IMG/VR virus record: IMGVR_UViG_3300046454_000346
Coordinates: 1-23,115 of that record
Reading direction: 5' to 3' (one strand)
Source of the DNA: a virus
DNA length: 23,115 nucleotides
Part shown: positions 3,991-15,707 of the stretch, in pieces
How positions within the stretch are numbered: position 1 is the stretch's first letter
Layout: every line of letters begins with the position of its first letter
The notes under the pieces: generated by a model
What the model saw: only the letters and a program-made list of their open reading frames with translations
Database searches by the model: none
Told to the model about the DNA's origin: nothing
Program-made: the position numbers and the translations under genes

Positions 3991-4271
3991 TCACGCCAGA
4001 GAGCGAGCTGGGCAAGAGCAAGGCCATTCTTGAGTGGCTGGATGAGCATGGCGTAGCGAAGGGTGACTGCTACAAGATCGAGCATGTCGATGGTTCGGGC
4101 ATCGCGACGGTCTACTGCTTCAAGCGCAACGAGCATGGCGCCAAGTATGTCATCGGAGCAGACCTTGGATTGCTCAAGGGCGATCCGAGGCTGCCTCCAA
4201 ACGCTGGTGATGTTGCCGTCGAGGAGCCACGCGCTATCAACATGAAGCGTCCGCTCCCGGTGGCGCCATGA
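3972..4271 (+). CDS. Hypothetical protein between the terminase genes (99 aa)
   Basis: A GTG start at 3972 is preceded by GGGGAGG (3959-3965) six bases upstream, a good ribosome-binding site. The 99-residue product has a helical N-terminal part followed by a beta-like part (KIEHVDGSGIATVYCFKR) and a proline-rich C-terminus. No family was recognised. Its stop overlaps the start of the terminase large subunit by four bases (ATGA at 4268), so it is probably made together with the packaging motor. A role in packaging is suggested by position only. Confidence 0.65.
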   Translation: MAPSTVITPESELGKSKAILEWLDEHGVAKGDCYKIEHVDGSGIATVYCFKRNEHGAKYVIGADLGLLKGDPRLPPNAGDVAVEEPRAINMKRPLPVAP

Positions 4272-5764
4272 CAACCGCCTTCGCTGAGGCGGCTGACATC
4301 ATCGACCCGCCCATGGTCGGGGCTGCGTTGTACCATGATGACCCGAAAGGGTTTGTCCATGACTGCTTCATCTGGAAGGACGACGATCCCGGACCGACCG
4401 ACTACCAGGACGAGGTGCTGGACCGGATCGTCGCAGAGCATCGAGTCGCGGTGTGTGGCCCACACGGTCTGGGCAAGACCACCACGGCAGCGTGGATCAT
4501 CCTGTGGTTCAGCTTGACCAGGGATGCGATGGCTGAGGACTGGAAAGTGCCGACCACCGCATCGGTGTGGAGGCAGCTGGAAAAGTTCCTGTGGCCAGAG
4601 GTTCACAAGTGGGCAGCTCGGCTCAACTGGGAGCTGCTAGAGCGTCGGCCGTTCCGTGACGGTGAAGAGCTGCTCGACATGGCGATCAAGCTGCGCACAG
4701 GTGAGGCGTTCGCAGTCGCCTCAGACGACCCGGCGAAAATCGAGGGTGCGCACGCTGACCAGCTGCTCTACCTGTATGACGAGAGCAAGTCGATCAGCCA
4801 GGAGACCTTTGATGCCTCAGAGGGAGCGTTCTCCGGCGCTGGTATGGATACGTCGGCGGAAGCCTTCGCCCTAGCATCCAGCACCCCAGGAGAGCCGCAG
4901 GGACGTTTCTACGACATTCAAAAGCGGCGACCCGGCACCGAGGACTGGTCAGTCAAGAAGGTGACCAAGGAGGAAGTCCAGGCAGCCGGTCGGATGTCGA
5001 AGGAATGGGCCGAGCAACGCGAGAAGCAGTGGGGCAAGGAATCGGCGGTGTACATCAACCGCGTGCTGGGCGACTTCGCGTCCAGCGAGGAGGACACCGT
5101 CATTCCGCTGAGCTGGGTCGAAGCAGCCAACGAGCGTTGGCATGAGGAGCATGAGGACTGGAGCGCCGACCTAGAGAACGTCGGCTGCGACATCGCGCGG
5201 TCCGGCAAAGACAAGACCGTGCTCGCCCTGCGTCGAGGCAGCCTCTTGACTGAGCTACGCAGGTTCACCAGGCAGGGCACGATGGAGACCACCGGGGTGA
5301 TCAAGGGTGTGCTCCAAATAGATCCCGCAGCCATCGCGACGGTGGACGTCATCGGGATCGGCGCGGGCGTCGTAGACCGACTGCTGGAGATGGGGATGCC
5401 CTGCGAGCCGTTCAACGCGAGCGAGCGCACCGAGGTGCTGGACAGCACAGGCGAGCTGGGCTTTGTCAACTGTCGCGCAGCCAGCTGGTGGAACCTACGC
5501 GAGCTGCTGGACCCTGACAGCACCTATGACGCCATTGCGCTGCCGCCCGACGACATGCTTACCGGCGACCTGACCGCTCCGCACTGGAGGGTGATGAGCG
5601 GTGGACGTATCCAGGTCGAGTCCAAGCAGGACATCATCAAACGACTCGGCCGCAGCACCGACGACGGCGACGCCGTGGTCATGGCCTTCTGGGAAGGACA
5701 GCCGCGTGAACAGGAGCATGTCGAGGAGACATGGGAACCCGAAACGATTGGAGCAGACATATGA
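4268..5764 (+). CDS. Terminase large subunit (packaging ATPase and nuclease)
   Basis: The terminase large subunit pumps DNA into the prohead using ATP and cuts it at the start and end of packaging. The 498-residue protein has a Walker A loop (GPHGLGKTT, residues 64-72), a Walker B strand ending in acids (LLYLYDE, 166-172) and a coupling motif (ASSTP, 203-207). The C-terminal RNase H-like nuclease shows the first acid at D308 (GCDIARSGKDKT), the second at D360 (ATVDVIGIGAG) and a last acidic pair near D466/D468 (DDGDAVVMAFW). Length and order fit the family. The start overlaps the preceding gene by ATGA and the stop overlaps the protease gene at 5761 in the same way. Confidence 0.93.
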   Translation: MTTAFAEAADIIDPPMVGAALYHDDPKGFVHDCFIWKDDDPGPTDYQDEVLDRIVAEHRVAVCGPHGLGKTTTAAWIILWFSLTRDAMAEDWKVPTTASVWRQLEKFLWPEVHKWAARLNWELLERRPFRDGEELLDMAIKLRTGEAFAVASDDPAKIEGAHADQLLYLYDESKSISQETFDASEGAFSGAGMDTSAEAFALASSTPGEPQGRFYDIQKRRPGTEDWSVKKVTKEEVQAAGRMSKEWAEQREKQWGKESAVYINRVLGDFASSEEDTVIPLSWVEAANERWHEEHEDWSADLENVGCDIARSGKDKTVLALRRGSLLTELRRFTRQGTMETTGVIKGVLQIDPAAIATVDVIGIGAGVVDRLLEMGMPCEPFNASERTEVLDSTGELGFVNCRAASWWNLRELLDPDSTYDAIALPPDDMLTGDLTAPHWRVMSGGRIQVESKQDIIKRLGRSTDDGDAVVMAFWEGQPREQEHVEETWEPETIGADI

Positions 5765-6531
5765 GCTACGCCGCAGAGCTGTTGGGCATTCGCAACTACG
5801 GGTGGAAGCCCTCGCTTCCCGATGCCCGCGACATACAGGCGTTCGCCACGCCGCCCGCGCCGTTGGCTGTCGAGCTGCCCGACGAGTTCAGCTTGCGCGA
5901 CGAGATGCCCGGCGTCTACGACCAGGGACAGCTCGGCTCCTGCACAGCGAACGCCATCGCTGGTGCGCTCCAGTACGCGAACATCAAGGCGGGCCATGAT
6001 TTCGGTGTTCCGTCGCGGCTGTTCATCTACTACTGCGAGCGCTTGCGCGAGGGCAGCGTCACTCAGGACGCCGGAGCCTACGGCCGCGACGGATTCGCCT
6101 CGCTTCGCAAGACTGGCGCACCCCCAGAGACCGTCTGGCCATACGTCATCGAACGCTTCGCTGACAAGCCGAGCGACGAGGCGTATGCCGATGCCGGGGC
6201 GAACCGCATCAAGCACTACACACACGCTCGCACATCGGCGCTGGAGGTCAAGCTGTTGGTGGCCGACCACAAACCTGTCGCGTTCGGCATGAGCGTGCCG
6301 CAGTGCTTTGAGGGAGAAGCCTGCATGACGACCGGCATCATGCCGGAATTCACCAAGGGTGAATCCTTCATCGGCGGCCACGAGATGCTGATCATCGGAT
6401 GGAAACCCGGCTACTTTGAGGTGCGCAACAGCTGGGGTCCGAACGTCATGGACGCTGGCCACGTCTGGATTCCGGAGACATTCCTGTTCGGCGGCTACGC
6501 CAGCGACTTCAGGGCGATACAGGCGATCTGA
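5761..6531 (+). CDS. Papain-like (C1A family) cysteine protease
   Basis: This 256-residue protein carries the complete active site of the papain family: the oxyanion Gln and nucleophilic Cys in YDQGQLGSCTANAIAGAL (Q55, C61), the catalytic His in GGHEMLIIGW (H207) and the Asn in EVRNSWGP (N223). The order and spacing match known C1A peptidases. The N-terminus (GWKPSLPDARD) resembles the short lead-in of bacterial and archaeal members. There is no signal peptide, so it should act in the cytoplasm or as a virion part. The frame is open to an ATG at 5731, but the ATG at 5761 has a GGAG upstream and overlaps the terminase stop (ATGA), so it is chosen. Lying between terminase and portal, it could process a virion or host protein; the target is unknown. 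A separate prohead protease exists at 12694, so capsid maturation need not be its job. Confidence 0.85.
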   Translation: MSYAAELLGIRNYGWKPSLPDARDIQAFATPPAPLAVELPDEFSLRDEMPGVYDQGQLGSCTANAIAGALQYANIKAGHDFGVPSRLFIYYCERLREGSVTQDAGAYGRDGFASLRKTGAPPETVWPYVIERFADKPSDEAYADAGANRIKHYTHARTSALEVKLLVADHKPVAFGMSVPQCFEGEACMTTGIMPEFTKGESFIGGHEMLIIGWKPGYFEVRNSWGPNVMDAGHVWIPETFLFGGYASDFRAIQAI

Positions 6532-6686
6532 TGACCACCCTGCGCATGACGATGTTCCAATGCGTCGATGCCAAGTCGCAGGTGGCGTTGCATACAGCGG
6601 TCTACAGCGAGAAGCGTGCGCAGGACCAGGCCAACAAGAGCATCAAACGCGGCCGAGCCGCCATCGTGATCAGGGTCGAGCCGTAG
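6531..6686 (+). CDS. Small hypothetical protein (51 aa)
   Basis: The ATG shares a base with the stop of the protease gene (TGATG at 6529-6533) and the stop at 6684-6686 is four bases before the portal start. The 51-residue product has a beta-like first half (MTMFQCVDAKSQVALHTAVY), a basic helical stretch and a final beta-like strand (AAIVIRVEP). No family was recognised. Tight packing between two genes and the sensible composition support coding. It might work with the protease or with the portal. Confidence 0.55.
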   Translation: MTTLRMTMFQCVDAKSQVALHTAVYSEKRAQDQANKSIKRGRAAIVIRVEP

Positions 6687-6690
6687 ACGG

Positions 6691-8337
6691 ATGGCCGGAC
6701 CGATCCAAACATTGCGGGAGGCCATCACAGGCGGCGGCGGGGCTGTGCCGTCTCCTGGAGAGGTCGATCCGGTCGAGGCGTTGCATGAGCAGCTCAACCA
6801 GGAGCGTCTGAACAACGAGATCATCCAAGAGAACCTCCAGATGCTGGAGATGTCGATGGAGGAAGAAGGGTGGCGCCGGGCGGGCTGGCGCATGCAGAGG
6901 GAATTCTCCCGACGCGGCCTGGACAACATAATCAACCTGTCGCGCAGCTACTACCTGTCGCACCCGCTGATCCAGCGCGCCGTCAACATCGTCACCTTCT
7001 ACACCTGGGCACAGGGCGTCGAAATGAACGCCGTCGAGGACCAAGTGCAAAAAGAGGTGGTCGAGCCGCTGGAAGCCGACGACTACAACCAGATGGAGTT
7101 GTACTCGCACCAGGCTGCGCTGCTCACCCAAGTGGACAAGCTCGTTGACGGCAATGTGTTCATCGCGATGTTCACCAACTACGACGCCGACGTTTCGCTG
7201 CGCTCGATACCGGCCGACCAGGTGCGGCAGATCTTCACCAAAGACGGTGACTCGCGATTCATCAAGTTCTACCTGCGCGAATGGTCGGAAGTGGTGTTTG
7301 ACGACAAGACCGGAACGCAGACCACCGAGACCAAGCGCTGCCTGTACCCGGACTGGCGGTACTTCCCCAAACAGCAGCCCAAGACCATCGGCGGCATCGA
7401 AGTGATGTGGGACGCTCCGATCATCCACATGAAGACCGGCGGCTTGAAGTCGATGCTGTTTGGTGTGCCCGAGACATACAGCGCGCTGGACTGGGCGAGG
7501 GCGTACCGCAAATTCCTGGAGAACTGGCACTCCCTGGTGGCGTCGCTCGCCAAATTCGCCTGGAACGTCAAGACCAAGGGCAGCAAGATCAAACAGGCGA
7601 GGGAAAAACTCCGCTCGACTGTCAAGGACGGCGATGAAGCCCGCGAACAGAATGACATCGCGCCGGGCGCAGCGTTCGTTGGCAAAGAAGGCGATGAAAT
7701 CGCGGCCATCCCCAAGTCCGGCGCGACCACCTCTGCTGACGACGCGAAGCCGAGCCGACTGATGGTGGCATCGGGGATGAACATTCCCGACACCATCCTG
7801 AGCAACGACCCGCAGCAGGGCGCGCTCGCTACGGCGCAGACGCTCGACCGGCCGACCGAGCTGTACATACTGAGCGAACAGGAGACAGAAGCTCAACTGC
7901 GCCGCGACATCGTGCGGTACAACGTCGATGCCAAGATCAGGGTTGGCAAACTGCCTGGCGCAATCACCTGGGATGACGAGGGCAACCAGCACATCGAGCC
8001 GGGCATAGACCCGACGCTGGAAGTCAGCTTCCCGCCGATCCTGGAACACGACCAGCTGGCCGTCATCAAGGCCATCGTGGCTGCGGCGACCCTGGAAGGG
8101 CGAACCGAGGCAGGAACGATCCCACCGCACCAGCTGTCCGAAATGCTGATGGAAGTGCTGGGCGTCGAGGACATCGAAGACGCCATCAAAGAGCTGGACG
8201 AAGCGGAAGAGGACGAGCTGAAACAGAGCGTCGAAGATCTCAAAAACCAGCTCGCTGGCATCCAGGCAGCTCCTCCCGTCCCCGGCTCACCGCCGCCCAA
8301 GCCCGTCCCTCCACCACCGGCTGTGCCGCCCAAATGA
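6691..8337 (+). CDS. Portal protein
   Basis: The portal is a twelve-fold ring at one capsid vertex through which DNA enters and leaves, and to which the terminase and connector proteins dock. This 548-residue protein has the expected length and position (after terminase, before MuF). Features typical of the family are a helical N-terminal part (residues 27-56), a region with LSHPLIQRAVNIVTFYTW (about residues 89-106), a central mixed domain, and a long acidic helical C-terminal part. The last 25 residues or so are almost all proline, with glycine, valine and lysine, which suggests an exposed flexible tail. The assignment rests on these features and on context rather than on a single diagnostic motif. 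The stop overlaps the next start (ATGA at 8334). Confidence 0.85.
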   Translation: MAGPIQTLREAITGGGGAVPSPGEVDPVEALHEQLNQERLNNEIIQENLQMLEMSMEEEGWRRAGWRMQREFSRRGLDNIINLSRSYYLSHPLIQRAVNIVTFYTWAQGVEMNAVEDQVQKEVVEPLEADDYNQMELYSHQAALLTQVDKLVDGNVFIAMFTNYDADVSLRSIPADQVRQIFTKDGDSRFIKFYLREWSEVVFDDKTGTQTTETKRCLYPDWRYFPKQQPKTIGGIEVMWDAPIIHMKTGGLKSMLFGVPETYSALDWARAYRKFLENWHSLVASLAKFAWNVKTKGSKIKQAREKLRSTVKDGDEAREQNDIAPGAAFVGKEGDEIAAIPKSGATTSADDAKPSRLMVASGMNIPDTILSNDPQQGALATAQTLDRPTELYILSEQETEAQLRRDIVRYNVDAKIRVGKLPGAITWDDEGNQHIEPGIDPTLEVSFPPILEHDQLAVIKAIVAAATLEGRTEAGTIPPHQLSEMLMEVLGVEDIEDAIKELDEAEEDELKQSVEDLKNQLAGIQAAPPVPGSPPPKPVPPPPAVPPK

Positions 8338-9143
8338 GCACGACGATGACAAGGCGCTCGATGCTCCGCGAGGTACAGAGCATGCAGAACCAGGTGACGC
8401 CGGGAGCGGCTGTTGTCTACGCGCTCCGCAAAGTTGAGCCGCGCAAAGAAGCGATGATGCGCAGCGAACTGAAGCCGGTGCTGAGAGAGCTAGGTCCGAA
8501 AGTTGCCACAGCCGCTGCCTCTGTTGGCGGGCTACTGGTCGAGCTGGGCGCGAGCGAGTTGACGGCTGCCGAGGAGCAGCGGGTCGAGCTGATATTGGAG
8601 GCCAGCGGCCTGACTGGGTGGAAGCAGGACGTTCTGAAGCCGATATTCCAGCGGGCTTGGTTCCGGGGCGCGAACATGACGGCGCAGGTGCTGAAGCGCT
8701 ACGGCATCGAGCCGACGCTGCGCGACCAGTACGCCCAGAACATGCTGGCGCGGGGTGGCAAACGGATGGGCCTGGTGGACATCGCCGGGGACACCAAAGC
8801 TGCGCTGCTGAAGGCAGTAGACGACGGGCGCGCTCTCGGCGCGAACCCGAACGTCACCGCGAAGTTGATCAGGGCGTATGTGCCAGCGGGCCGCTTTACC
8901 AACGCCGGGTCCGGCTACCGCGCTCGGATGATCGCGCGCACCGAGACTCTCCACTCGGCTCGGATCAGCTCTCTTGAAGTCTACAGGTCGTCACCGCTGG
9001 TGCGCGAAGTTGTCGCATTCGATGGCGAGAGTGATGAGGAATGCGCTGCCCGTAACGGTGCGGTGTTCACCTTTGATGAAGCTGAAGCAGAGGCTAACGA
9101 CACCCACCCAAACTGCGTCCTGGCTTTCGGGCCGGTCGTGTAA
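8334..9143 (+). CDS. MuF-like minor head protein
   Basis: Minor head proteins of the Mu gpF / SPP1 gp7 family bind the portal and are packaged in small numbers. The 269-residue product shows the family's C-terminal pattern: the ARTETLHSAR helix (around residues 201-210), then a cysteine/acidic segment SDEECAARNG (233-242, C237) and a final THPNC (H258, C261), which together form a probable metal site. The N-terminal 150 residues are helical. Directly following the portal gene is the standard location. No toxin or enzyme domain is fused at the C-terminus, as is seen in some relatives. The start overlaps the portal stop by four bases. Confidence 0.8.
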   Translation: MSTTMTRRSMLREVQSMQNQVTPGAAVVYALRKVEPRKEAMMRSELKPVLRELGPKVATAAASVGGLLVELGASELTAAEEQRVELILEASGLTGWKQDVLKPIFQRAWFRGANMTAQVLKRYGIEPTLRDQYAQNMLARGGKRMGLVDIAGDTKAALLKAVDDGRALGANPNVTAKLIRAYVPAGRFTNAGSGYRARMIARTETLHSARISSLEVYRSSPLVREVVAFDGESDEECAARNGAVFTFDEAEAEANDTHPNCVLAFGPVV

Positions 9144-9155
9144 GGAGACCACCCC

Positions 9156-11873
9156 ATGGCATACCCTGCAACCCTTGACGCACTCCCCACCACCAGTAAA
9201 AACGAAGACCTCTCCAAAAACACACACCCGAAACTTCATAACGACGTCAATGACGCGATCAATCGACTTGAGGAAGTTCTTGGACTAGAACCCCAGGGAG
9301 GCTCCGGCACAGTTGGCGAACGCATTGCGGCCGTCGAGCAGTCCATCACCGCCATTGACCTTGTGCCAGAGAACTACGGCGCTAAAGGCGACGGGGTTAC
9401 CGACGACACGGAAGCCTTTGAAAAATGCAGCAAAGCCATCAAAGCCGCCCATTCAGGCAAAGGCGGCACGATGTTCTTGCGAGCGGTCACCTACATTCTT
9501 GACAACTTCATCTGGGAAAACAAGATCACGATAGAAGGGTCCGGCCAGCAGGCCACAACCCTGAAAGCCAAGGCCGGGTCCACGAACCCCGTAATCAGAA
9601 TTGGCGCTGGGAAGGTCGAAGGCGGCTGGAGGAACTTGCAAGTTGCCTCTAACGGGAATGCGGGACAGCACGGCTTCCAACTGCACGCAGTCGAAAACGA
9701 AACCGGCGGCGGAGTCTGGAACTCGGACTTCACCAACGTTCAGGTTGGCAGCTTCTCAGGTTGCCAGATGTGGTTCCAGGGCGGCGCGATAGGCGCAGGG
9801 GAACCGCACCAGAACGTCACATTCCACAATGTGTACCTGCGCCGTCCGGATACGGGGACCGGAGCAACCACCAGTCGCGGGTTCAAAGCGACAGGACAGT
9901 GTGCCAAGTTCTACTTTGACACCGACTGCGTGATTCAGGGCATTACCAATCTCGGCGAAGGCAAAGCCGTTGGAACCAACATCGAGCTGTCCCGTGAGTT
10001 CTTGCAGACGACCACGCTGAGCGCTGAAGCAGCGGCCGGGCAGAAAAAAGTCAAACTGACTTCAGTTGCGGGGCTGGAAGCCAACAAGCTGGTGTCCATT
10101 GGCGAGGGTGCCTTCAACGAGCTTTGCGAAATCGAATCCATCGCGGGTTCGGAAGTCACGATGAAAGCAAACCTTGAATTCACCCATGCCAACGGGGACA
10201 CTTTCTACGCCTTGTCAGGCACCGTTGGCGCTCCGGCCACCAAAGCTCCGGTCTTCTTCCTGTTCGACGGGGCAACAATTCAGAACGCCGATCTAGAGGC
10301 TCTGGTTGACTCCGCTCAGTGGGTCATCTTCAAGGCATGCGACGCGGAGAACCAGGCGCGCGTGATGAAGGTGAGGCACGAAGGCTTCCAGGTCCACTTC
10401 CAAGGTAATGTGTCCGGAGCTACTGAAGGAACCGCGCTCGGATCGGGAACACTCACACCCGGCTCCAAAATCATCACGGGCGCCAACGCTGGTTGGGTCA
10501 ACGGCGACAAAATCAACGGTCGCGGCATCCCGGCAGGAACCACCGTTGAATCGGGCGGTGGTGGCGCCGAAATTCACATCACCAACAACGTAGAAGAAAC
10601 TACGGGCGGCGAAACGGCCATGACCGGCGTCCCCCTGGTCAAGGGCGGCGAAGGCAAAGGATACATCGCAGACTACGGGGCTGGGTGCCAGGGCAGCGTT
10701 TCATATTTCCCGAATGGCGGGATTGACAACGCCGTCATCTGCCATGGGGAACATGGAGTGCGGGTCAAAGAGCTTGCGCGCAAATCCGCAACGACGTTCC
10801 AGAACACAACCGGCATCACGCGGAGCATGGGAACCGCTGAAGTGCTTAATCTTGGAGGAGCGCTGGCTGCGTCATTGACGAACGCCACCAACTCCATCAA
10901 GTTCATCTCCGGTACGCACGCAACCGGAGAGAGAATCCGCATCACCGCGACGGTGGCCGCCACCAAATTCATCACAGGCGGCAATATCACTTTGCCGGGC
11001 GGAGTTAACTTGACCCTCGCTGCAGGCGAGACGGTCAACCTGGAGAAGACAGACGCCGGGCCGACAACTTGGATAGTCATCGGGGTGCAGCGTACCAGCA
11101 CAGCCGTCCCTACTGCACCAACTATCGTCACCGCGACAAACGCCGCTCTGGCGGTGCCTGCGGGAGCTGGCCATGCGTTGGTCACCGTAGTCGGCGGTGG
11201 AGCTGGCGGAGGCGGCGGAGGAGCTGACGCAAAAGAATCTCCTGTGAACACTCAGGTTGGTGGCGGCGGTGGCGGGTCGGGTCAGTCGGTCACAAAGTTG
11301 ATCTCGCTGGCAGAAGCCGCGACCCTCAATGTCACAATCGGCGCGGCTGGGATCGGCGGTGCGGGCGGCGCAGCCAGCTCCAACAACGAAGGCCATGCCG
11401 GGGAAGAAGGCAAAGCCGCGAACACCGACACCACCGTGGCGGGAACAGGGTTCACAACGGTGACCGCGCGTGGTGGGTCTGGCGGTAAGGCTGGGGCTGC
11501 CAAATCAGCAGCAACAGTCAACGCCGGGGTATACGGCGGTCGTGCTACGGGTGGTCAGACCAGCACAAACTGGATGGCTGGAGGTGGAGGCGCAGCAGCC
11601 TCAGCGAGCGGAGGGGGTGGAGGTTCCGCCATAGGTGCGTCCGGCCGAGGTGGTGGGGCTGGAGGGCCAGCCAACGGCGCCAACGGCGGCAGCGCAGGAG
11701 CGGAAGGAACCATCTCTTCCAAAACAGGCACCACCGAAGGAGGCACACCAGGAAATGCTCCGGAAAACTCCGGTCAGGGTGGCGACGGTGGTGGCGGTGG
11801 CGCTCCGCAGGGCAAAGGCGGCTCAGGCGGAAACGGCGGTTCAGGCGTAGTGATCATAAGTTGGCTGCCGTAG
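9156..11873 (+). CDS. Spike/fibre-like protein: pectate-lyase-type fold with glycine-rich C-terminus
   Basis: This 905-residue protein is built like a receptor-binding spike. Residues 1-65 look like an attachment domain with a short coiled coil. YGAKGDGVTDDTEAFEKC (74-91) is the hallmark opening of the Pectate_lyase_3 beta-helix. The middle has beta repeats, including segments of the types LSAEAAAGQKKVKLTSVAG and GSGTLTPGSKIITG that recur in phage surface proteins. From about residue 676 to the end it is glycine-rich (up to six Gly in a row) and closes with GSGVVIISWLP, as in glycine-rich tail-fibre tips. The ribosome-binding site AAGGAGA is just upstream. Such genes normally follow the tape measure; here it sits inside the head module, so it may be a head fibre or a displaced tail spike. 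Many Lys codons are AAA, unlike the upstream genes. Confidence 0.8.
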   Translation: MAYPATLDALPTTSKNEDLSKNTHPKLHNDVNDAINRLEEVLGLEPQGGSGTVGERIAAVEQSITAIDLVPENYGAKGDGVTDDTEAFEKCSKAIKAAHSGKGGTMFLRAVTYILDNFIWENKITIEGSGQQATTLKAKAGSTNPVIRIGAGKVEGGWRNLQVASNGNAGQHGFQLHAVENETGGGVWNSDFTNVQVGSFSGCQMWFQGGAIGAGEPHQNVTFHNVYLRRPDTGTGATTSRGFKATGQCAKFYFDTDCVIQGITNLGEGKAVGTNIELSREFLQTTTLSAEAAAGQKKVKLTSVAGLEANKLVSIGEGAFNELCEIESIAGSEVTMKANLEFTHANGDTFYALSGTVGAPATKAPVFFLFDGATIQNADLEALVDSAQWVIFKACDAENQARVMKVRHEGFQVHFQGNVSGATEGTALGSGTLTPGSKIITGANAGWVNGDKINGRGIPAGTTVESGGGGAEIHITNNVEETTGGETAMTGVPLVKGGEGKGYIADYGAGCQGSVSYFPNGGIDNAVICHGEHGVRVKELARKSATTFQNTTGITRSMGTAEVLNLGGALAASLTNATNSIKFISGTHATGERIRITATVAATKFITGGNITLPGGVNLTLAAGETVNLEKTDAGPTTWIVIGVQRTSTAVPTAPTIVTATNAALAVPAGAGHALVTVVGGGAGGGGGGADAKESPVNTQVGGGGGGSGQSVTKLISLAEAATLNVTIGAAGIGGAGGAASSNNEGHAGEEGKAANTDTTVAGTGFTTVTARGGSGGKAGAAKSAATVNAGVYGGRATGGQTSTNWMAGGGGAAASASGGGGGSAIGASGRGGGAGGPANGANGGSAGAEGTISSKTGTTEGGTPGNAPENSGQGGDGGGGGAPQGKGGSGGNGGSGVVIISWLP

Positions 11874-12693: not shown

Positions 12694-14184
12694 ATGATGA
12701 TGACGACCGCTCAGCTAACAGAGATCCTGGAGGCGCGTGCCCGAACTCCATTCAGGGAGGGCGCAGCCGCCGGAGTGAAGCGGGAGATCACCATCATCGA
12801 AGCTGGGTGGGGTTCGTCCGGCTACTACTCCGAGCAGGTGCTGGAGCGCGACATACCGCGCATCTTCCCAATCGGGACCCATATGTACTTGGATCACCCG
12901 ACGCTGAGGGAGGACAAGGAACGTCCTGAGCGTTCTCTCCGCGATCTGGTCGGGGTAGTAGTCGAGACCCCGCGCATGTCCGGCATCGCCTCTGTGGCGG
13001 TGTGTGAAATCTTTGAGCACTGGGTTCCGGTGATCGACGCGCTCGCTGAGCACATCGGCACCAGCATCCGGGCGTTCGGCACCAGCGAGGAAGGCGACGC
13101 TGGCGGCAGGACCGGCCCGATCATCCACCAGCTCACCGAGGGCGTGTCAATCGACTATGTGACGCTGGCTGGTGCTGGCGGCAAGGTCGGCCCGCTGGTC
13201 GAGAGCGCGCAGGCGAAGGTGCTGCCGCTCATCGAGTCGGCGCGGGCTGCGCGATCTGTCGATGAGGCTCTCAACTCAGACCTGTCTACCAACCTGGAAA
13301 AGGCTGGCGAAGAAAAGTGGGGGTCCAAGGAACCGTACACCTATGTCTACGTTGAAGACTTTGACGTTGACGAAAACTGGGCGGTGTTCTCCGTCCGGCC
13401 GAGCGGCAACGACCGGGTGCTGAAGCGCATCTCGTTTGTCCGCAACACCGAGGGTGACGTTGCGCTAAGCGGTGATGGTGAAGAGGTCGAGCGCGTCACC
13501 ACCTATGAGCCAGCCGACGACGGCATGACCGTCGCAGAACTGAACATGGACACGGTGATGGCGTCGATGCCGCCGAGCTTCTCGGACAACGAGAAGTTCA
13601 AGGAGTCATTCAAAGACTTAATCCAAGAGTTTGACAACAGCGGCTCCGGCCGTGCAACCAAGGAGGCCCAAATGGGCGAGGAGAATCGCCAGCTGTCGGA
13701 GCTGCAAGAGTCGGTCCGGCGGCTGGAGGAGGCTCAGAAAGAGAACGACAAAAAAGTCGAGTCTCTGGAAGAGTCCAAAAAAGCGGAGACCGACCGCGCT
13801 GACCGTGCAGAGGAAGCTCTCCTGCGCGTCGAGGCCGAAAAGGTCATCGTCAAGGTTCTGGAAGATTCCGAGGGTCTGCCCAGCAAGGCGACCGAGCGGG
13901 TCATCGAGAACTCACTCCAAGGAGACCTGCCGGTCAACGAAGACGGCAAGCTCAAAAAGGAAACGCTGGAAGAGACCGCCCGCGCGAAGCTGCGCGAGGA
14001 GATCGAGTACATCGGTGAGGCCACCGGTCGCGGCAAGGTCCGCAACCACGGCTCCAGCGATTCCATCACAGAGTCGGGGTCCGAGGACGAGGACAGCGAC
14101 GATGACATCAAGGCTCTGGAGAAGTCGTTTGAAGAGAGCGGCATGTCCGAGGGCGAAGCTCGCATCGCGGCGAGAGGAAGGTAA
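12694..14184 (+). CDS. Prohead protease / scaffold fusion (capsid maturation protease)
   Basis: The N-terminal 170 residues look like a phage prohead serine protease. GTHMYLDHP supplies the candidate catalytic His (H63 or H68), HIGTSIRAFG the Ser (S124), and VSIDYVTLAGAGGKVG (D154) the last strand with a possible acidic partner. Residues about 300-496 are highly charged and helical, with a long coiled coil (LQESVRRLEEAQKENDKK and beyond), as expected of a scaffold that fills the prohead and is then degraded. At 496 residues it is much longer than a free protease, which supports the fusion. It lies just before the decoration and capsid genes. Three consecutive ATGs exist (12694, 12697, 12700); AAAGGA at 12689-12694 fits the third best, so the true protein may be two residues shorter. 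Confidence 0.8.
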   Translation: MMMTTAQLTEILEARARTPFREGAAAGVKREITIIEAGWGSSGYYSEQVLERDIPRIFPIGTHMYLDHPTLREDKERPERSLRDLVGVVVETPRMSGIASVAVCEIFEHWVPVIDALAEHIGTSIRAFGTSEEGDAGGRTGPIIHQLTEGVSIDYVTLAGAGGKVGPLVESAQAKVLPLIESARAARSVDEALNSDLSTNLEKAGEEKWGSKEPYTYVYVEDFDVDENWAVFSVRPSGNDRVLKRISFVRNTEGDVALSGDGEEVERVTTYEPADDGMTVAELNMDTVMASMPPSFSDNEKFKESFKDLIQEFDNSGSGRATKEAQMGEENRQLSELQESVRRLEEAQKENDKKVESLEESKKAETDRADRAEEALLRVEAEKVIVKVLEDSEGLPSKATERVIENSLQGDLPVNEDGKLKKETLEETARAKLREEIEYIGEATGRGKVRNHGSSDSITESGSEDEDSDDDIKALEKSFEESGMSEGEARIAARGR

Positions 14185-14552: not shown

Positions 14553-15707
14553 ATGGCACAGGTGCTTGAGTTGGTCGAGCGGATGCGGGCCGAGGAGGCC
14601 AGCGTGTCCAAGCTCTTTGGTGGGGATGAGGGCGTACAAGTTCTCCGCCACTCCGCGCAGGATTTGGCGGAGGCCCAGAAGTTCCTAAGCGACATCAAGA
14701 CGGGCCGGAAGAAGTTCTGGCAGTTTGAGGAGGCAATGTCCACCTCTGACTTCCCGATCCTGATGGGCGACATCCTTGACCGGACGTTGCTCGCAGGCTA
14801 CCAGGAGATTTCGCCCTCCTGGCAGGGGTACGTCAAGAAAGGCACCGTTAACGACTTCCGCAAGGCCAAGAAGGTCGCGGTGGACGGTGCCGAGGGAGTG
14901 CTCGGAAAAGTGGGCGAGCAACAGCCCTACCCCGAGGACAGCGTGGCCGACAAGAAGGACGAATATTCCGTCTTCAAGTACGGGAAACGTCTGGCCATCG
15001 ACTGGGAGGACATGATCAACGATGATCTCGGTGGTCTCGACTCCCTTCCTCAGCGGCTCGCCCGTGCAGCTCGACGGACCGAGCAGAAGACAGCAGCGGA
15101 ACTCTGGGTTGGCAAAAAAGGCCCATCGGAAACGCTGTACAAAGCGGAATTCAAAAACGTCATCGAAAAAAATCCACCGCTGAGCATCGCGTCGTTGCAA
15201 CAGGCGCTGCTCCTCCTCTCAGAAATGAAGGACTTCGATGGGGAACCCATCGAAATCGGCGCGGTCACCCTGGTGATCCCGTATGCGCTGGAAGTGACGG
15301 CCAACAACATCCTCCACGCTCTGACGATTGACGTCAACGAGTTCGGCGGAACCGAAAAACAGCGGCTGCGCGCTCAGAACTGGATGAGCAACAAACTCAC
15401 CCTGGTGACCGAGCCGTACATTCCCATGATCGCCAACGAAGCGAATGGCAACACGACATGGGCGCTGTTCGCAACTCCGGGCACTTCGCGTCCGGCCTTG
15501 GAGCTGGGGTTCCTGCGGGGACACGAAGTCCCGGCGCTCTACGAAAAGGCACCCGACGCTCGCCTGGTCGGCGGCGGCGGAGATGCGAGGGAGTCGTTTG
15601 ACAACGACACCATTCAGTACCGCATCCGCCACGTGATGGGCGGCGTCCAGTACATCAACACAGGCGGTTACAAAACCACCGTGGCGTCCAACGGTTCCGG
15701 CGCGTAA
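14553..15707 (+). CDS. Major capsid protein (HK97 fold)
   Basis: The 384-residue protein is assigned as major capsid from its position after protease and decoration genes, its length, and a family-like layout: a helical N-arm (residues 1-60), then an E-loop/spine region (YVKKGTVNDFRKAKKV, EYSVFKYGKRLAIDWE, residues 92-153) and a C-terminal axial and peripheral domain ending in IQYRIRHVMGGVQYINTGGY. No long delta domain is present, in line with a separate scaffold. AAAGGAG at 14536-14542 is the ribosome-binding site. Codon choice changes inside the gene: up to about base 15110 Glu is GAG in 14 of 16 and Lys AAG in 13 of 16 cases; afterwards Glu is GAA in 11 of 15 and Lys AAA in 8 of 10 (hand counts). 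Confidence 0.85.
   Translation: MAQVLELVERMRAEEASVSKLFGGDEGVQVLRHSAQDLAEAQKFLSDIKTGRKKFWQFEEAMSTSDFPILMGDILDRTLLAGYQEISPSWQGYVKKGTVNDFRKAKKVAVDGAEGVLGKVGEQQPYPEDSVADKKDEYSVFKYGKRLAIDWEDMINDDLGGLDSLPQRLARAARRTEQKTAAELWVGKKGPSETLYKAEFKNVIEKNPPLSIASLQQALLLLSEMKDFDGEPIEIGAVTLVIPYALEVTANNILHALTIDVNEFGGTEKQRLRAQNWMSNKLTLVTEPYIPMIANEANGNTTWALFATPGTSRPALELGFLRGHEVPALYEKAPDARLVGGGGDARESFDNDTIQYRIRHVMGGVQYINTGGYKTTVASNGSGA

Follow-up and report, generated by a model that had tools for sequence, protein, structure and literature searches.

A xylellain-type cysteine protease gene in the terminase-portal slot looks like mobile phage cargo and is tentatively linked to lysis

The protease gene and its neighbours

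The window, i.e., the whole 23,115-nucleotide stretch analysed here (positions 1 to 23,115 of IMG/VR virus record IMGVR_UViG_3300046454_000346), comes from a phage that is represented by metagenomic sequence alone and encodes a papain-like protease in a slot that is bordered by the genes for the terminase large subunit (TerL) and the portal protein. The features of this region are:

4268..5764, + strand: terminase large subunit, bordering the slot on its left (phrog_2, 2.5e-29)
5750..5753, + strand: probable ribosome-binding site GGAG of the protease, within the TerL gene (from sequence)
5761..6531, + strand: xylellain-type C1A cysteine protease, 256 aa (Pfam Peptidase_C1, 2.3e-9; 3OIS by phmmer, 8e-41; Foldseek TM 0.87)
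5923..5925, + strand: codon of Gln55, oxyanion hole (invariant in 144 relatives)
5941..5943, + strand: codon of Cys61, nucleophile (invariant in 144 relatives)
6379..6381, + strand: codon of His207 (invariant in 144 relatives)
6427..6429, + strand: codon of Asn223 (invariant in 144 relatives)
6531..6686, + strand: gene for a 51-aa microprotein (TGATG overlap with the protease stop; also in a relative without the protease)
6691..8337, + strand: portal protein, bordering the slot on its right (phrog_10963, 3e-67)
8334..9143, + strand: MuF-like head morphogenesis protein (phrog_2468, 1.6e-8; TIGR01641, 1.1e-6)
12694..14184, + strand: separate prohead protease with a C-terminal scaffold-like region (phrog_15531, 2e-25)

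The protease ORF runs exactly from the ATG at 5761 to a stop codon ending at 6531, and its ATG overlaps the TerL stop (5762-5764) as ATGA. The ORF is real, and the preliminary description was right that it overlaps the terminase stop. An upstream in-frame ATG is also present at 5731; despite this alternative, the start MSYAAELLG is kept in the sister phage L001. The 256-aa sequence shows no visible hydrophobic N-terminal signal, in agreement with the earlier statement that a signal peptide is absent. The proposed setting, a packaging/head operon with its own prohead protease at 12694, was likewise confirmed by matches for TerL, portal, MuF-like protein, spike, decoration protein and MCP. An antisense ORF of 312 aa at 5524-6462 is presumably a shadow of the high GC content.

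An intact protease of the xylellain type

Peptidase_C1 was the sole Pfam domain found in the 256 residues and scored well above its curated cut-off (E 2.3e-9; 38.1 bits versus 20.7), with the active-site residues aligned. The Gln-Cys-His-Asn order is intact (Q55, C61, H207, N223), and all 144 aligned relatives are identical at these positions, so that both the assignment to the papain family and the numbering of C61 in the preliminary description were correct. Xylellain (3OIS) is the best PDB match by sequence (phmmer E 8e-41). An AlphaFold2 model based on a 50-sequence alignment reached a pLDDT of 94.7, and a Foldseek search with this model again gave 3OIS as the top PDB hit (E 3.6e-26, TM 0.87) and also returned many cathepsins, as is typical of a papain fold. 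Since its closest match is xylellain and it lacks the long I29 propeptide, the protein is a short C1A protease of the xylellain type. No match to a head-maturation protease family was found with Pfam and PHROG profiles, nor did the protein contain a peptidoglycan-degrading or cell-wall-binding domain. Between the window and L001, dN/dS was 0.23 for the protease, 0.20 for the portal and 0.22 for MuF, showing that the protease is under purifying selection. Judged by its sequence, it is an intact enzyme of the C1A family and is predicted to be active.

Xylellain, a C1A protease of Xylella fastidiosa whose own substrate is not known (PMC12090721), shares the fold, the catalytic tetrad and the short form with the phage protease (36% identity in the structural alignment, TM 0.87). 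Because this alignment begins at residue 12, the N-terminal segment is partly common to both proteins. Xylellain is bacterial, whereas the phage copy is located in a head operon. Xylellain-type C1A genes in Caudoviricetes have been reported as horizontal acquisitions (PMC10380794) and the window protease belongs to this class of short bacterial C1A peptidases in tailed phages. Neither the terminase-portal slot nor a link to lysis is described in the accessible part of that paper. The presence of such genes in tailed phages is therefore already published and, measured against the accessible text, the head-operon slot and the lysis link are the new parts. Our search of the open-access literature found no paper on a phage papain-like protease in a terminase/portal slot or close to endolysin and holin genes.

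Thermoanaerobacterium phage THSA-485A also encodes a C1A peptidase with an intact tetrad (Tsac_2838), but this protein is only 25% identical to the window protease, carries a C-terminal extension and has its gene flanked by those of a GH25 endolysin and a holin. The prohead protease of the phrog_15531 type, as found at 12694, is also a protease of the head operon; it belongs to another enzyme family and is present with or without the papain-like protease. A C1 peptidase is named as a potential lytic enzyme by the authors of the XacN1 study, whose list of enzymes packed in virions does not include it (PMC5852040). In our sequence search, XacN1 gave no match to the window protease.

The slot between terminase and portal varies

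The order TerL-protease-portal was found in seven distinct phages (the window, L001, L018, L020, L021, L007, and L182), which shows that the gene is no isolated insertion and confirms that other phages share this arrangement. MuF and prohead protease genes follow in all of them apart from L182, in which MuF went undetected. Two types of TerL lie to the left of the slot, one in the window, L001, L020, and L179 and the other in L007, L018, L021, and L182-L186. The dissimilar terminases of the window (4268-5764) and L007 (L007:8395-9813) are encoded at the same site, next to portals that are related; their identity is 28% in a poorly aligned comparison, and this difference suggests a terminase replacement.

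The microprotein has no Pfam or PHROG match. Homologues occur in each of the six further relatives that bear the protease, and L179/L180 retain one in the absence of the protease. The microprotein thus goes with the portal side, and we rejected the idea that it is a dedicated protease inhibitor. The terminase-portal junction of L186, another phage without the protease, holds a gene for a DUF6884 protein (L186:5237-5791), and the junction therefore appears to be an accessory site.

Variation was also seen further downstream. A pectate-lyase-like spike with a glycine-rich C-terminal domain is encoded at 9156-11873, between MuF and the prohead protease; it has no counterpart in L001, and L007 carries other genes there, which marks this position as a variable insertion site. 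The MCP of the window (14553-15707) is 57% identical to that of L001, compared with 84% for the portal and 91% for TerL, while the MCPs of L001 and L018 are 82% identical. These values suggest recombination inside the head module.

The head module occurs with and without the protease

Phages whose portal is at least 47% identical to the window portal were treated as one portal family. The protease is present between terminase and portal in seven of these phages and missing from this position in five (L179/L180, L183, L184, L185, and L186), so that the slot provides a natural experiment in which the same head module can be compared with and without the protease. Searching the whole records of the protease-lacking relatives with the protease profile, including the 46-47 kb records of L179 and L184, returned nothing; parts of the genomes may be missing from these records, and L183 and L185 are represented by short ones. 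Mapped onto the portal tree, the distribution of the protease can be explained by no fewer than two changes, such as a single gain followed by a loss in L179.

The history of the protease differs from that of the portal. Matching identities had suggested strict co-inheritance of the two genes, which is weakened by their conflicting trees: the protease tree groups L007, L020, L182, and L019 without L021, whereas in the portal tree L007 and L021 form a fully supported pair. The neighbourhood of the L019 protease contains no counterpart of the window's structural genes. For the protease tree, the AU test argued against placing L007 and L021 together (p 0.031) and against a clade restricted to slot-borne proteases (p 0.008).

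We also looked for a protein segment that accompanies the protease. Alignments of portal, MuF, and MCP contained no column that is present in all protease bearers and missing from all other phages, and thus no protease-dependent segment was found in these proteins. A tail spike as substrate was rejected, as L001 retains the protease without a spike counterpart. The preliminary description had suggested that the protease matures the portal, MuF or spike protein. This suggestion is not supported by the comparison: the papain-like protease is missing from relatives whose portal, MuF, and MCP belong to the same families, no segment tracks it, the spike is absent from the protease-bearing L001, and the protease and portal trees conflict. 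The enzyme is thus not required with the head module in the way a prohead protease is. Taken together, the slot, absence, tree, and alignment results speak against a function in assembling the head, and the protease looks like mobile accessory cargo that is horizontally exchanged and sits in a variable terminase-portal slot.

Proximity to lysis genes in other phages

In unrelated phages, xylellain-type proteases are often encoded close to endolysins. Pfam searches for Amidase_2, Phage_lysozyme, Peptidase_M15_4, PG_binding_1, and GH19 located an endolysin domain within 2.5 kb of the protease in 7 of 17 records, where random placement predicts 1.6 (p about 0.0003). Other cut-offs gave similar results (1 kb, p 0.001; 3 kb, p 0.0008; 5 kb, p 0.009), all of these distances having been picked after some cases were seen. 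The remaining 10 records, many of them from jumbo phages, show no such proximity. Insertion hot spots are located where late operons end. As random placement ignores these hot spots, the test speaks for proximity and not for function, and the proximity may reflect where cargo lands.

The gene order is GH25 lysin-protease-holin in THSA-485A and protease-small membrane protein-Amidase_2 in L083; further cases are L002, L006, and L034. L003 (endolysin-like phrog_669), L047 (GH25 downstream), L043, and L071 were kept out of the test. The latter two encode Tlde1-domain proteins close downstream of their xylellain-type proteases (L043:10238-10597 and L071:9603-9962). A GH108 search gave no match in any record and is uninformative.

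Within the clade of the window, we compared the gene content of protease bearers (the window, G009, G010, G011, G012, G013, and G003) with that of phages lacking the protease (G001/G002, G005, and G007), leaving out the protease, ORFs antisense to known genes, and the microprotein, which is too short for reliable detection. A holin-like gene was present in all six bearers, not counting the truncated window, versus none of the lacking records. An Amidase_2 endolysin occurred in five bearers versus none of the lacking records, and the sister phage G001 has a GH24 lysozyme in its place. Amidase_2 is missing from G012, which does have the protease and the holin-like gene, and we rejected this endolysin as an obligate partner. 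The co-occurrence with the holin-like gene amounts to roughly a single independent event (G001), to which more distant relatives are added, and is only suggestive. The holin-like proteins (L197:6868-7329 in G011, L200:1159-1560 in G009, and L206:8844-9227 in G012) are 75-81% identical where the portals are about 50% identical (36% in G013), which indicates either unusual conservation or recent exchange. In this clade, the protease is far from the lysis genes and not part of a lysis cassette: in related genomes these genes lie at the far end of the tail genes, and the window ends before them.

Possible roles of the protease

Our preferred reading, which is tentative, is that the enzyme is a late, cytoplasmic, host-directed protease that aids lysis by cleaving envelope or surface proteins, its putative targets, after the holin has opened the membrane. 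The protease would be translated together with the late head genes, remain in the host cytoplasm and act on host proteins late in infection. Its most likely contribution to lysis would be the cutting of envelope or surface proteins upon opening of the membrane by the holin, so that it could serve as the protein-cutting partner of the endolysin. A host protein as putative target, the other suggestion in the preliminary description, is favoured over targets in the virion. The distance from the lysis genes within the clade of the window and the lack of a cell-wall-binding domain in the protein count against this reading.

Host takeover or counter-defence, in which specific cytoplasmic proteins of transcription, stress or defence are cleaved and the slot merely provides expression, seems somewhat unlikely. 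It would agree with the patchy, mobile distribution across unrelated phages, with the intact active site and missing signal peptide, and with the argument from a jumbo-phage survey that peptidases of patchy occurrence among phages probably target the host (PMC7824862). However, late expression is expected from a slot in the packaging/head operon, and the proximity to endolysins is left unexplained. Processing of portal, MuF, spike or another virion protein besides the action of the prohead protease would suit the head-operon position in seven phages and a constraint similar to that of the portal, but the protease-free relatives such as L179, the lack of a protease-dependent segment, the conflicting trees, the missing spike of L001, and the prohead protease already present make it improbable.

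Packaging in the head near portal and MuF, followed by delivery with the DNA and early action on host proteins, is slightly more improbable still. Proteins that are packaged and injected with DNA are known from other phages (discussed in PMC7824862), and the portal and MuF genes are close by. On the other side, we identified no packaging signal or prohead-protease target, L182 has the protease without a detectable MuF gene, and the XacN1 C1 peptidase, a protein not matched to the window protease, is not among the enzymes reported in virions (PMC5852040). Finally, close bacterial relatives of the protease are widespread, as would be expected of a captured bacterial gene without a selected role in the phage. 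Such a passing acquisition is highly improbable and largely refuted by the selection evidence, i.e., the dN/dS of 0.23, the invariant catalytic residues, and the repeated occupation of the same slot.

Extending our preferred role in lysis beyond the window, xylellain-type C1A proteases could be a widespread, unrecognised protein-degrading component of lysis that is released together with the endolysin, with some phages, including the window, encoding it within the head operon and not in the lysis cassette. We regard this generalisation as unlikely on present evidence. If the link to lysis is true, phage lysis would involve dedicated protein degradation besides the degradation of peptidoglycan, and a testable role could be proposed for a scattered set of phage peptidases that are so far unassigned.
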